Source: Halopenitus persicus (GTDB taxonomy: Archaea > Halobacteriota > Halobacteria > Halobacteriales > Haloferacaceae). From it: a DNA stretch of 64,000 nucleotides. Numbering within the stretch: the stretch's first letter is position 1; every line of letters begins with the position of its first letter. Of this stretch, positions 9,125-14,530 are shown piece after piece. The notes below the pieces were generated by a model that did no database searches, was not told where the DNA came from, and saw nothing but the letters and a program-made list of their open reading frames with translations. The stretch covers positions 372,001 to 436,000 of the forward strand of contig NZ_AP017558.1 of NCBI RefSeq assembly GCF_002355635.1, in the 5' to 3' direction. The translations under genes and the position numbers were made by a program.

Positions 9125-10117
9125 ATGGTCACGTTTCTCGCCGGGGGCACGGGTACGCCGAAGCTGCTGCAGGGAGCGACCCGCGTCTGGGAGCCGGGAT
9201 CGATCACGGTCGTCGGCAACACCGGCGACGACGTCGAGATCGGCGGCCATCTCGTCTGCCCGGACGTCGACACCGTGCTCTTCTGGGGCGGTGACGTCCT
9301 CGACCGCGAGACGTGGTGGGGGATCCACGGCGACACCACCGCGACGCACGACGAGCTCGACCGGCTCGCGTCCGCCGCCGGCCTCGAGACGGGACCGCGA
9401 TACCTCCCCGATGAGGCCCAGACCGCCGGTCGGCGGATCGCGAACTGGCGACGGTTCTCCGGCGTCGCCGAGTTCCTCGAGATCGGCGACCGCGATCGCG
9501 CCGTCCACATCACGCGAACGAGCCTGCTCGACGAGGGACGGTCGCTGACCGACGTCACGCGAACGCTCGCGGACGCGTTCGACCTGTCCGTCGATCTCGT
9601 TCCGATGTCGGACGATCCGGTCGCCACGATCGTCCACACCGACGCGGGGCCGCTCCACTTCCAGGAATACTGGGTCGCCCGTCGTGCGGCGCCGACCGTG
9701 GAGGACGTCGAGTTCCGTGGAGCTGACCGGGCAACGCCGACGCAGGCGGTCACGGACGCCCTCTCGGAGCCGGTCGTGATCGGACCGTCGAATCCCGTGA
9801 CGAGCATCGGCCCGATGCTCGCGCTGTCGGGCGTCGAGGCCGCGTTGCAGGGGACCCCGGTCGTCGCCGTTTCGCCGTTCGTCGAGGACGAGGTCTTCTC
9901 GGGGCCGGCCGCGGAGCTGATGGACGGCGTCGGCTACGAGCCCGGCACCGCCGGCGTGGCGGCGGCGTATCCGTTCGCCGACGTGTTCGTCCTGGACGAT
10001 GCCGACGAAACCGACCTCGACCGCGAGGTCGTTCGAACCGATACTCGCATCGAGAACGGCGACGACGCCGAGCGCGTGGCTCTCGCCTGTCGATCCGCGC
10101 TCGAGACGGTTCGATGA
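9125..10117 (+). CDS. cofD: 2-phospho-L-lactate transferase CofD (coenzyme F420 biosynthesis)
   Basis: A 330-residue enzyme of normal length that joins the phospholactyl (or phosphoenolpyruvyl) group to the deazaflavin Fo, giving F420-0. The N-terminal motif [14 protein letters not shown], the loop [19 protein letters not shown], and the late [13 protein letters not shown] segment are CofD hallmarks. Haloarchaea make F420, so the function is expected. The stop codon overlaps the start of the next gene in an ATGA arrangement, which indicates translational coupling. Confidence 0.95.
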
Positions 10118-11076
10118 ACGATGGGGTGAAATGGATGGCTCACGAGGAACACGGTGAGATGGATCCGGACCGTGACGAGATGGATCCGGACCGTAGCGAG
10201 ACGGCTCCGGAACGCGGCGAACGCGTTCCCTTCGACCCGCCGGTGGCGGCCGCGAGCCTCAGCGGTCGGTCCGACGCGTCGTGGGCCCGCGCCGCGGCCC
10301 CGCACGTCGGCTGTGCCGTCCTCGGTGGGATCGCGATCGATCCGGCCAGCCGGGCGGCCGCGCGCGACCTCGTCGACCGCGGTCGCGAGGAGTTCCTCCC
10401 GTCGGACCCGATCGCGTTCGTCGACGCCCAGTTGGAGGCGCTCGCGGACGCGCCGCTTCGACCGGCCGTCAACGTCCGGAGCACGACGGCCGCCCCGATC
10501 GAGCGCGTCGCGGGCGTCTGTGCGGCCCACGGCGCGATCCTCGAGGTAAACGCGCACTGCCGCCAACCGGAACTGTGTGCGGTCGGCTGCGGCGAGTCGC
10601 TGCTTGCCGACTCGGACCGGCTCTCGGAGTACGTCGCGGCGGCTGCGGACGCTGGCGCAACGGTGAGCGTGAAGGCTCGAGCCGAGGTTCCCGGCGTTGA
10701 CCTGCCGACCCTCGCCCGGTCGGTCGAGGATGCAGGCGCCCGCATCCTCCACCTGGATGCGATGGATACCGAACGCGCCGTGGCCGACGTCGCGACCGCG
10801 ACCGACCTGTTCGTGATCGCGAACAACGAGGTTCGTGGGCGCGAGAGCGTCCGGGAGTACGCCGCGTACGGGGCCGACGCGGTGAGCGTCGGTCGCCCGA
10901 GCGACGAGCCGGCCGTCCTCGAGCGCGTCGCCCGCGCGGCGGCCGAGTTCGTTTCGGAACCCGGATCCGACCCCGACCGTCAAACCGGAAGCGGAAGCGA
11001 GACCGGGACGGAGGGCGAAACCGGGGTCGGATCGGGGGCCGACACGCGATCGAAACCGGAGGATGCATCGCCGTGA
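10114..11076 (+). CDS. tRNA-dihydrouridine synthase-like TIM-barrel protein (archaeal NifR3-related)
   Basis: A 320-residue protein. After an acidic N-terminal tail with tandem repeats (about 1-45) comes a TIM barrel with [48 protein letters not shown] and [15 protein letters not shown]. These match the archaeal group annotated as related to NifR3/Dus flavoenzymes. NAHCRQ in the position where Dus proteins carry a catalytic Cys region is consistent. The last 45 residues are again low complexity. Whether it truly acts on tRNA is uncertain; its position between cofD and a CitG-like gene suggests a cofactor role instead. Confidence 0.75.
10156..10218 (+). repeat. 21-bp tandem array at the start of the Dus-like gene (3 copies)
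   Basis: Units start at 10156, 10177 and 10198. Copies 1 and 2 share GAGATGGATCCGGACCGT and copy 3 is diverged. They encode seven-residue units of the type EMDPDRD in the N-terminal tail and keep the frame. Confidence 0.85.
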
Positions 11077-12023
11077 CTGGGGACGAATCCGAGGACCGAC
11101 GCCCGGCTTCGAGCGATGCACCGAGCCGACCCAGCGACCGCGTCCGAACCGCGATCCGGAGCGACGCGTCCCGGACGTCCGCCGCGAACGCGCAGTTGGC
11201 GCTGTTGCTGGAGGTCGCCGGAACGCCCAAGCCCGGCAACGTCGATCGGGCGCGCGACCTCGAGGACCTCCGATTCGAACACTTCCTCGCGGGCGCGATC
11301 GGGGCCGGTGACGGGTTTCGTCGCGCCGAGCGCGGCGCCCGCGTCGGGAGCGCGTTCGAACGCGCGGTCGCCGGAATGAGCCGCCAGTCGGGCGGAAACA
11401 CGCAGTTCGGCTGCCTGCTCCTGCTCGTTCCGCTCGTCTCGGCTGCGGCTCGAGGATCGCTCACTCCCGACGGCCTCGAGCGCATCGCCGCCGAGACGAC
11501 CGTCGCGGACGCGGTCGACTTCTATCGCGCCTTCGAACACGTCGACGTCGCGGTCCCCGATCCGCCGGCGGATCTCGACGCCCTCGACGTTCGCCGCGGG
11601 GCCGCCGCGGCACCCGCCCTCAGGGATCGCGATCTGGCGCTCGCGGACGTGCTGGCACTCTCGGTCGAGACGGAGGCGGACGACCGGATCCCCGACTGGA
11701 ACGCGGTCGAGTGGACGACCGGCTTCGAGCGAACGTTCGCGGTCGCCGAGTCGATACGAACCGATACGGGACCGGTCGGCGATCGCGCCGCCAGGGCGTT
11801 CATCGGTCTGCTTGCCGACCGACCGGATACCCTCGTGGCGACCGCCCACGGCCCGTCGGTCGCGCGGGAGGTCTCCGACCGCGCCGCCGCCGTTCGTGGC
11901 GATCTCGAGGCCGCGGAGGCGCTCGCGGACGCGCTCGTCGAGGAAGGGATCAACCCCGGAACGACCGCCGACGCGGTCGCGGCCGGCCTCTTCGTCGCGC
12001 TCGAACGGGGGCTGTCCGTGTGA
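11073..12023 (+). CDS. CitG/MdcB-like triphosphoribosyl-dephospho-CoA synthase family protein
   Basis: A 316-residue protein starting at a GTG that overlaps the previous stop (GTGA). It carries the CitG family features: a long first helix ending in EVAGTPKPGNVDRARD, GMSRQSGGNTQFGCLLLLVPL, and a late GINPGTTADAVAAGLFVAL. CitG transfers a triphosphoribosyl group to dephospho-CoA for citrate lyase, but no citrate lyase genes are nearby. Archaeal homologues occur with C1-carrier (methanopterin-type) biosynthesis genes, so the reaction here is probably a related pyrophosphoryl or ribosyl transfer. Substrate is unknown. Confidence 0.78.
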   Translation: MTGDESEDRRPASSDAPSRPSDRVRTAIRSDASRTSAANAQLALLLEVAGTPKPGNVDRARDLEDLRFEHFLAGAIGAGDGFRRAERGARVGSAFERAVAGMSRQSGGNTQFGCLLLLVPLVSAAARGSLTPDGLERIAAETTVADAVDFYRAFEHVDVAVPDPPADLDALDVRRGAAAAPALRDRDLALADVLALSVETEADDRIPDWNAVEWTTGFERTFAVAESIRTDTGPVGDRAARAFIGLLADRPDTLVATAHGPSVAREVSDRAAAVRGDLEAAEALADALVEEGINPGTTADAVAAGLFVALERGLSV

Positions 12024-12766
12024 CCCGGTCCGGAGACGGCAGCGATCACGGGGGCGCGAACGCCGACGCTGACCCATCGGACCGCCGATTGGTCGACCCT
12101 GACCGGTTCGATCCCGACGACGAGCGAACGCGCGTCCTTCCCCGCGGGACGGGAAACGGCTGGCCGGTCGATCTCGACGGGGTGACCGAGACCGTTGTGG
12201 CGACGCGTGGTCCCGACGGGATGTGGAATCTGGCCGCGCTTGGCGTTCACGCTCCGGATCGGGACGCGTTCGTCGCCGGGACGGACGACGCGGAAGCGGC
12301 TCCGACCGCACGAACCTACGGCCGAACGCGGACCCGACGGAACGTCGAGCGCACCGGTCACGGCGTGATCCAGTTCACGAGCGACCCGCGGGAGTTCGTC
12401 GACGCGGCGCTGACGATCGACGAGCAGTCGGACCCCCTGCTGGCGAACGCGGACGCGTACGTCGAGGTCGAGTTCACGCGCGTCGACCGCGTCGTCGAGG
12501 CCGGCACCGAGATCCACACGTGGGAACTCGAACCGGTCGCGGGACGGATCCTCGAGGAGCGGGTCCCCCGGACGAACCGGGGGTTCGGCGCGGTCATCGA
12601 CGCGACCGTCGCTGCCTCGCGCCTCGGCGTCGAGGGGTTCGACGATGACGAACTGCTCGACCGGCTGCAGTACTTCGCCGATACCGTCGAGCGCTGTGGC
12701 GGGCCGCGGGAACGGACCGCGTTCGAGCGGATCGATGACGCGACGGGCTGGCGGGATCTGCGGTGA
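12020..12766 (+). CDS. DUF447 family protein
   Basis: A 248-residue protein that begins at a GTG overlapping the CitG-like stop. The core reads VTETVVATRGPDGMWNLAALGVH, then GVIQFTSDPREFVDAALTID, then TWELEPVAGRILEERVPRTNRGF. This resembles the flavin-reductase-like beta barrel assigned to DUF447, a family found in methanogens, methylotrophs and haloarchaea. Members in methylotrophs lie in tetrahydromethanopterin gene clusters. The stop codon lies at the start of a 23-bp tandem array. It is the last gene of the cofD chain. Confidence 0.75.
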   Translation: MTRSGDGSDHGGANADADPSDRRLVDPDRFDPDDERTRVLPRGTGNGWPVDLDGVTETVVATRGPDGMWNLAALGVHAPDRDAFVAGTDDAEAAPTARTYGRTRTRRNVERTGHGVIQFTSDPREFVDAALTIDEQSDPLLANADAYVEVEFTRVDRVVEAGTEIHTWELEPVAGRILEERVPRTNRGFGAVIDATVAASRLGVEGFDDDELLDRLQYFADTVERCGGPRERTAFERIDDATGWRDLR

Positions 12767-12828
12767 CGAGGTGGCGGGATCGGCGGTGACGAGGTGGCGG
12801 GATCGGCGGTGACGAGGTGGCGGGATCT
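12760..12828 (+). repeat. 23-bp tandem array over the DUF447 stop codon (3 copies)
   Basis: Three near-identical units begin at 12760, 12783 and 12806, each containing GGTGACGAGGTGGCGGGAT. The TGA stop of DUF447 (12764-12766) lies in the first unit, and the last ten bases of each unit copy the codons just before the stop. The unit is not a multiple of three. Confidence 0.9.
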
Positions 12829-13291: not shown

Positions 13292-14530
13292 ATGGACCCC
13301 GTGTTCCGGCCGGTCGTCGACCCGACGTTCGCGGTTGCCGCGATCGCGTTCGTGGTCGGCGGCGCCGCCCTCGGAACGATCAGCGGGCTGATCCCGGGAC
13401 TACACGCGAACAACTTCGCGCTCGTGCTCGCCGGCGCCGCCCCGAGCATCCCCGCGGACCCGCTGCTCGTCGGCTGCGCGATGCTCGGGGCGGGCGTGGT
13501 ACATACGTTCCTCGACATCGTTCCCTCCCTCTCGCTGGGCGTCCCGGACGCCGCGATGGCGGTCGCCTCGCTGCCTGGCCATCGGCTGGTGATCGCCGGG
13601 CGGGGTCGCGAGGCGTTGCGGCTCTCCGCGGTCGGATCCGGGCTGGCGGTGCTGCTCGCCGTTCCGTTGGCGATCCCCGTCACGTGGGTGATGATCCACG
13701 CGTATCCGACGATCCGGGCGAACATCGGGATCGTCCTGGCGGCAGTCGTCGGATTCCTCCTCGTGACGGAGTCCTCGCGGCGGGCGGCGGTCGCCGGGCT
13801 CGGCGTCTTTCTCGCGAGCGCGTTTCTCGGATCGGTCACGCTCGACGTCGACCCGAACGCGCCGCTTTCGACCGGCGGGATGCTCGCGCCGTTGTTCAGC
13901 GGCCTCTTCGGTGCGCCGGTCCTCATCGACGCGATCGACGGTGCCGGCGTGCCGCCCCAGTCGGACGCCCGGATCGCGATGGACCGTCGGCCGCTCGGCA
14001 TTACGGCCGCTGCGGGATCGTTCGCGGGGGCGATCGTCGGCTATCTGCCGGGCGTCTCGGCGGCGATCGCCGCGACGGCGGCGATCCCCGTCGTTCCACG
14101 GTCGGACGCCGACCGGGGGTTCGTGGTCGCCACGAGCGGCGCGTCGACGAGCAACACGGTCTTCGCGCTGTTCGCGCTCGTCGCGCTGGGCGTGCCCCGG
14201 ACGGGCGTGATGGTGGCCATCGAGGAGGTTGCGGTTCCGCTCGCCCTCCCCGTCCTGCTCGCGGCGACCGCCCTCGCCGCCGGGATCGGGTTCTGCGTGC
14301 TGCTTCTGGTCGGCGACGCGTACCTCCGGATCGTCGGCAGGGCGGACTACGCTCGACTCTCGCTCGGCGTACTCACGTTTCTGGTCGGACTCTCGTTCCT
14401 GTTCGCGGGACTCGTCGGCGTCGGGACGCTCGTCGTCGCCGCGGCGTTGGGGCTCGTTCCGCCGCGGGTCGGCACCCGTCGCGTCCATCTGATGGGGGTG
14501 TTGATCGGTCCGTTGCTGTTGGGATCGTGA
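13292..14530 (+). CDS. TctA-like / DUF112 multi-pass membrane permease
   Basis: A 412-residue hydrophobic protein with about ten predicted membrane segments. The family motif GTISGLIPGLHANNFAL (residues 29-45) and the repeated GYLPGVSAAIAATAAIP with TSGASTSNTVFALFALVALG correspond to the two TctA half-repeats. Bacterial TctA works with TctB and a periplasmic TctC in tricarboxylate uptake, but no TctB or TctC is present here. Haloarchaeal members are stand-alone, and the substrate is unknown. Confidence 0.82.
   Translation: MDPVFRPVVDPTFAVAAIAFVVGGAALGTISGLIPGLHANNFALVLAGAAPSIPADPLLVGCAMLGAGVVHTFLDIVPSLSLGVPDAAMAVASLPGHRLVIAGRGREALRLSAVGSGLAVLLAVPLAIPVTWVMIHAYPTIRANIGIVLAAVVGFLLVTESSRRAAVAGLGVFLASAFLGSVTLDVDPNAPLSTGGMLAPLFSGLFGAPVLIDAIDGAGVPPQSDARIAMDRRPLGITAAAGSFAGAIVGYLPGVSAAIAATAAIPVVPRSDADRGFVVATSGASTSNTVFALFALVALGVPRTGVMVAIEEVAVPLALPVLLAATALAAGIGFCVLLLVGDAYLRIVGRADYARLSLGVLTFLVGLSFLFAGLVGVGTLVVAAALGLVPPRVGTRRVHLMGVLIGPLLLGS

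Follow-up and report, generated by a model that had tools for sequence, protein, structure and literature searches.

The window analysed here, a 64,000-nucleotide stretch of Halopenitus persicus (contig NZ_AP017558.1, positions 372,001 to 436,000), carries an overlapping chain of four genes, cofD, a gene for an MJ0144-family Dus-like protein, a citG-like gene and a DUF447 gene (Table 1). Comparison with other genomes showed that the real partners of the citG-DUF447 pair lie outside the chain, and that they are ribofuranosylaminobenzene 5'-phosphate (RFAP) synthase, Mer and split MetE. RFAP synthase catalyses the first committed step of methanopterin synthesis, and methanogen Mer, which requires F420, forms the methyl level. 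Judging from the co-loss of these genes, their clusters and the families to which they belong, most haloarchaea probably make not only folate but also an RFAP-derived, methanopterin-like pterin, which serves in the methyl step leading to methionine. The citG-DUF447 pair of the window would encode two biosynthesis enzymes of this carrier.

The distribution of each gene family was examined in 108 genomes of the order, 89 of which are at least 90% complete (hereafter the good genomes). RFAP synthase (TIGR00144) gave matches in 102 of the 108 genomes, 98 of them above the cut-off. Among the good genomes, CitG and Mer (NF002619) were each missing only from the same three, G008, G060 and G114, and RFAP synthase only from these and from G218. 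DUF447 was also missing from the three genomes in a sample of the phylum. These four genes are hereafter called the module. All three genomes retain Mch, MJ0144 and pterin-binding dihydropteroate synthase (DHPS) proteins, and Mch was rejected as a module member on this ground. With the genomes taken as independent, Fisher p values were 9e-6 for CitG with Mer, 4e-5 for either of them with RFAP synthase, and 0.09 to 1 for module genes paired with Mch or MJ0144; these values ignore the kinship between genomes and serve as a guide only. G114 is Halobacterium salinarum DSM 3754, while G008 and G060 belong to one other genus (g6), and the module losses are therefore at least two events. Unlike H. 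salinarum, the other sampled Halobacterium genomes retain RFAP synthase, CitG, DUF447, Mer and MetE. In a third lineage, Halobellus rufus is without RFAP synthase and DUF447, and two genomes of family f38 (76-78% complete) lack CitG and Mer and show no RFAP synthase match above the cut-off.

The module is linked to methionine synthase (PF01717). Most genomes have two copies of this family, and those of genus g6 have one. H. salinarum is alone among the good genomes in having none, and methionine is among the five essential amino acids of this species (PMC2674319). In G060, a protein encoded at 2040-2915 of locus L159 comes near the methyl-tetrahydrofolate:corrinoid/iron-sulfur protein methyltransferase (250 bits, cut-off 259). 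To judge by this similarity, it could perhaps provide a replacement methyl route.

The same genes are found side by side in several haloarchaea. At locus L234 of Halarchaeum nitratireducens, mer, citG, DUF447 and RFAP synthase follow one another with overlapping starts and stops, and two metE-like genes are divergent from them. One genome of family f36 (G165) carries mer-DUF447-RFAP synthase-metE-metE on one strand, and another (G175) carries mer-DUF447-RFAP synthase. In G018, the distance between RFAP synthase and mer is about 2 kb, and in both G193 and G218 some 7 to 8 kb separate mer from the four-gene chain. The Mer equivalog NF002619 (cut-off 276) was matched with 450 bits in G000 and 420 bits in Halarchaeum; under a second model, TIGR03555, the Halarchaeum protein is below the cut-off (290 vs 349 bits). 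The usual neighbours of haloarchaeal RFAP synthase, namely a KaiC-like ATPase, TFS and a dihydroxyacid dehydratase, were judged not to be pathway genes.

The chain itself is conserved. Of 71 named haloarchaeal loci, 62 have the order cofD-MJ0144-citG-DUF447. A start/stop overlap of 4 bp recurs at 50 of 63 MJ0144/citG junctions and at 52 of 62 citG/DUF447 junctions. With the order conserved and the overlaps recurrent, the arrangement is not due to chance. In the window, the junction letters are cgATGAac (cofD/MJ0144), ccGTGAct (MJ0144/citG) and gtGTGAcc (citG/DUF447). The preliminary description of this DNA had thus correctly placed the four genes, which all lie on the + strand, with a 4-bp overlap at every junction, and its assignment of CofD to F420 biosynthesis agrees with the TIGR01819 score. 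In other families of Halobacteriota, citG and DUF447 stand next to each other almost without exception, frequently preceded by MJ0144, and they are neighbours in nearly all methanogen families examined.

The chain, however, consists of two units, cofD-MJ0144 and citG-DUF447, with the break between MJ0144 and citG, because the two pairs are lost, kept and moved separately. Several Natrialbaceae have cofD-MJ0144 at one site and citG-DUF447 at another, and G008, G060 and G114 (each 99% complete) have retained cofD-MJ0144 while both citG and DUF447 are gone. G018 and G164 carry cofD-citG-DUF447 without MJ0144. It has to be asked whether the whole chain could be an F420 unit, in which the CitG-like, DUF447 and Dus-like proteins modify F420 or its precursor. 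The linkage of cofD in most of the named loci, and its position close to citG in some other Halobacteriota families, would agree with this. Such a unit is nevertheless very unlikely, given that cofD-MJ0144 persists where citG-DUF447 is lost, that the two pairs separate in Natrialbaceae, and that bacterial islands (described below) carry CitG-like and DUF447 genes with no cofD within the stretches examined. We therefore regard cofD as a neighbour outside the pterin module; since Mer needs F420, cofD fits in this place without being a member. The preliminary description had supposed that the four products act together and had proposed a search for their co-occurrence. This search links citG-DUF447 with RFAP synthase and Mer, and not with cofD. 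The four genes do not form a single functional unit, and the proposed pterin-like cofactor step is supported for citG and DUF447 and fails for cofD and the Dus-like gene, which both stand outside the module.

Table 1. Genes of the four-gene chain in the window, and places of the chain and of related genes in the window's genome
Feature	Position	Strand	Start	Model scores	Assignment
cofD	9125-10117	+		TIGR01819 377.9 bits (cut-off 257.45)	2-phospho-L-lactate transferase, coenzyme F420 synthesis
MJ0144 family	10114-11076	+		TIGR00736 125.6 bits (equivalog cut-off 218.7); Pfam Dus 22.5 bits (cut-off 20.4)	Dus-like TIM-barrel protein
citG-like	11073-12023	+	GTG	PF01874 (Pfam CitG) 192 bits (cut-off 27)	CitG-like transferase
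DUF447	12020-12766	+	GTG	PF04289/PF20766; DUF447_N 68 bits (cut-off 24), DUF447_C 62 bits (cut-off 24.8)	Flavin mononucleotide (FMN)-binding split-barrel protein (predicted)
Four-gene chain	contig 1, ~0.38 Mb				
metE	contig 1, ~1.22 Mb				
mer	contig 1, ~1.34 Mb				
RFAP synthase	contig 1, ~1.56 Mb				

The reading given above depends on a functional RFAP synthase. Pfeiffer and Dyall-Smith doubted that HVO_2628, the homolog in Haloferax, makes RFAP (PMC8305020). Haloferax volcanii shows matches to RFAP synthase, CitG, DUF447, Mer and PF01717; its mer is HVO_1937 and its cofD is HVO_2479. The enzyme of G000 scores 165-167 bits against the subfamily model TIGR00144 (cut-off 113.5), and the haloarchaeal proteins retain the stretches HVGLGSGTQ, GGRSGxG and GQSSWGP. 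At the p-aminobenzoate (pABA) site, Arg26 (Methanothermobacter numbering) is retained in 30 of 33 haloarchaeal RFAP synthases, and position 19 (Asp19) is Asn in 32 of the 33. In the Methanothermobacter enzyme, the D19N variant is partly active and the R26K variant loses pABA affinity (PMC6787355). In the tree, the haloarchaeal enzymes form a single clade, which groups with bacterial island enzymes and stands apart from the methanogen ones. Because of this grouping, distance from the methanogen RFAP synthase is a weak argument against function. We suggest that the haloarchaeal RFAP synthase would still make RFAP.

The bacterial islands provide a useful comparison. In five plasmid islands, from Paraburkholderia, Azoarcus, Phyllobacterium, Azospirillum and Aquabacterium, a CitG-like gene stands beside RFAP synthase, methylene-tetrahydromethanopterin (H4MPT) dehydrogenase and mch, with fae in four of the five; DUF447 adjoins DUF6513 in Azoarcus, Phyllobacterium and Aquabacterium. 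These gene sets fit the orf19-orf20-afpA-orf21-orf22 island named in PMC3615186. Haloarchaea resemble the bacterial dephospho-H4MPT islands in the clustering of CitG-like, DUF447 and an RFAP synthase of the same side of the tree, but the haloarchaeal clusters show Mer and split MetE, and no fae, mtdB or DUF6513. With H4MPT biosynthesis of methanogens they share the RFAP synthase family, the adjacent CitG-like and DUF447 genes and the F420-dependent Mer; in many methanogen families MJ0144 also stands alongside the pair. Haloarchaea differ from methanogens in that no TIGR00284/DUF6513 was found, folate is synthesized too, Mch does not follow the module, and the module is linked to methionine synthase. 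Sulfolobus acidocaldarius, a control, has matches to RFAP synthase, CitG, DUF447, TIGR00284 and PF01717, and none to Mch, Mer or MJ0144. Sulfolobus uses sulfopterin, a modified folate (PMC3697235); its system differs from that of haloarchaea by the presence of TIGR00284, whereas folate genes, Mch and Mer are found in haloarchaea. The company of CitG-like and DUF447 proteins with methanopterin-type genes, which the preliminary description had pointed out, is thus confirmed by the islands and by the adjacency in methanogen families.

Several observations, however, weigh against an RFAP-derived carrier in haloarchaea. The RFAP synthase stays below the stricter equivalog NF040726 (169 of 328 bits). 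TIGR00284/DUF6513, the DHPS-like protein of methanopterin islands and the likely enzyme for joining the pterin to RFAP, is absent from all 21 haloarchaea searched, in which the weak matches are mostly FolP, and was found in the methanogen and Sulfolobus controls. If an RFAP-derived carrier is made, the joining of RFAP and pterin would therefore fall to a folate-type DHPS. In addition, five drafts of 58-78% completeness, from families f29 (G158, G169 and G186) and f36 (G165 and G175), have RFAP synthase and Mer and no CitG. G162 (81% complete) is without Mer, yet has CitG and RFAP synthase, and G218 (94% complete, 170 contigs) is without RFAP synthase and Mch, yet has CitG and Mer. G008 and G060 each keep one MetE, so that module loss is not always loss of methionine synthase, and the window's own genome scatters RFAP synthase, mer and metE (Table 1). 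No report of an RFAP-derived haloarchaeal pterin was found in the literature searched, and folate has been reported from haloarchaea in 1988 work, as cited in PMC4500146. A further genome of family f29, G179, is also without CitG, and its RFAP synthase and Mer matches are only below the cut-off. The absence of CitG from families f29 and f36 would fit a dispensable tail step.

With respect to DHPS, most haloarchaea have a second protein of this type (TIGR01496) in addition to the FolP domain that forms part of a large fused frame. It scores above the TIGR01496 cut-off at loci L156 and L158 and slightly below it at L160 of H. salinarum. The second DHPS was likewise set aside: it is common, but a copy is also present in H. 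salinarum.

The main rival explanation is a modified folate. Haloarchaea are held to use folate only (PMC8305020), in agreement with the preliminary description, which took them not to use the methanopterin-type carrier, and on this account the RFAP synthase homolog, the CitG-like protein and DUF447 would modify folate, for example in its tail, for use by Mer and split MetE. This is the current annotation view, and it agrees with the folate measurements, with the FolP domain and second DHPS of most genomes and with the absence of TIGR00284. We nevertheless consider it unlikely, since H. salinarum and genus g6 lost all four module genes together and kept FolP and Mch, since the same CitG/DUF447/RFAP synthase set occurs in bacterial methanopterin islands, and since the pABA-binding residue Arg26 is retained.

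The predicted chemistry of the CitG-like protein was considered next to that of known enzymes. In citrate lyase maturation, CitG links the ribose of ATP through an alpha bond to a hydroxyl group, adenine being released, and the triphosphate then serves to form a phosphodiester. Methanopterin carries an alpha-ribofuranosyl group on its ribitol, and this group ends in a phosphodiester. The window protein has the core motifs of E. coli CitG, and its structure model matches 3h9p, an Archaeoglobus CitG-like structure. Since the motifs are kept and the model fits, we propose that a ribosyl or triphosphoribosyl group is transferred to the ribitol within the RFAP part. By analogy, the CitG-like enzyme is thus a candidate for attaching a (tri)phosphoribosyl tail to the RFAP-derived pterin.

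Might the protein instead be a true triphosphoribosyl-dephospho-CoA synthase, serving the prosthetic group of citrate or malonate lyase? It shares with CitG/MdcB synthases the Pfam domain, scoring far above the cut-off, and the core motifs PKPGxVD, NT and PGxxAD. Its family differs from these synthases, however, in the forms GGNTxFG and NPGTTAD, in its gene company and in the equivalog scores; the window protein reaches 18 to 21 bits against the NCBIfam CitG/MdcB equivalogs (cut-offs 272 to 282), and the CitG, MdcB and PRK01237 cut-offs are each missed by more than 250 bits. Unlike in E. coli, no citD, citE, citF or citX gene adjoins it, and it is linked instead to RFAP synthase and Mer. A true CitG function is therefore extremely improbable. 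This function and F420 modification were both rejected as main readings on cut-offs, gene company and separate losses.

The DUF447 protein was modelled with high confidence (predicted local distance difference test score 93.6), and the model matches the FMN-bound DUF447 structures 2iml, 2nr4 and 2ptf as well as flavin reductases. On the basis of this fit, DUF447 with FMN may reduce a dihydropterin or a tail intermediate of the RFAP-derived cofactor. A 23-bp tandem repeat (window 12742-12827, 3.7 copies, 95% match) spans the end of the DUF447 gene and the gap behind it.

On the probable reading given at the outset, the CitG-like enzyme would use CitG chemistry, in which ATP donates its ribosyl group and adenine is lost, to add the tail's second ribose in alpha linkage, and DUF447 would reduce either the pterin or an intermediate of its tail. 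The carrier would work chiefly at the methyl level. Mer would reduce the methylene-pterin with F420H2, the F420 being supplied through cofD, and split MetE would pass the methyl group from the carrier to homocysteine, which yields methionine. Mch and the enzymes of folate metabolism would stay with folate. A more specific scheme, which we advance tentatively and with less than even confidence, is that haloarchaea have two one-carbon carriers, with folate serving the formyl and methylene levels and an RFAP-based pterin the methyl level for split MetE. In this scheme the CitG-like protein would be the missing ribosyltransferase of methanopterin tail synthesis, transferring a triphosphoribosyl group from ATP to the ribitol, and DUF447 an FMN-dependent reductase of the same pathway, in archaea and bacteria alike.

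Haloarchaea are generally held to have lost methanopterin and to have turned its enzymes over to folate, and a second, RFAP-derived carrier would contradict the folate-only part of this view. If such a carrier is present, most haloarchaea have kept an RFAP-type pterin for methionine synthesis, Mer and RFAP synthase of Haloferax need a new annotation, and H. salinarum, a model species, has exceptionally lost the pathway. The CitG-like and DUF447 families would gain a concrete place in methanopterin synthesis, testable in a genetically tractable aerobe, and a deletion strain requiring methionine would open unknown steps of this synthesis to simple genetics. Nothing in the literature searched connected DUF447, CitG or COG1767 to methanopterin, and no earlier proposal of an RFAP-based methyl carrier in haloarchaea was found in literature that was thin in subscription journals.

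The Dus-like MJ0144 gene travels with cofD and is not part of the pterin module. It was rejected as a member because G018, G163 and G164 are without it and keep CitG, while G008, G060 and G114 have it and lost the module; in the order-level search, its distribution did not follow that of RFAP synthase or Mer. The AHCRQ motif is invariant in the family, and its Cys presumably occupies the place of the Dus catalytic Cys. The window protein is under the TIGR00736 equivalog cut-off and slightly above that of Pfam Dus; the former was exceeded by no haloarchaeon among the 108 genomes. A 21-bp tandem repeat (window 10146-10220) codes for an acidic N-terminal extension of this protein.

The chain is flanked upstream by a biotin-ligase-like gene on the opposite strand and downstream by the gene for ribosomal protein S17e, behind which a TctA-family transporter gene lies at window 13292-14530.

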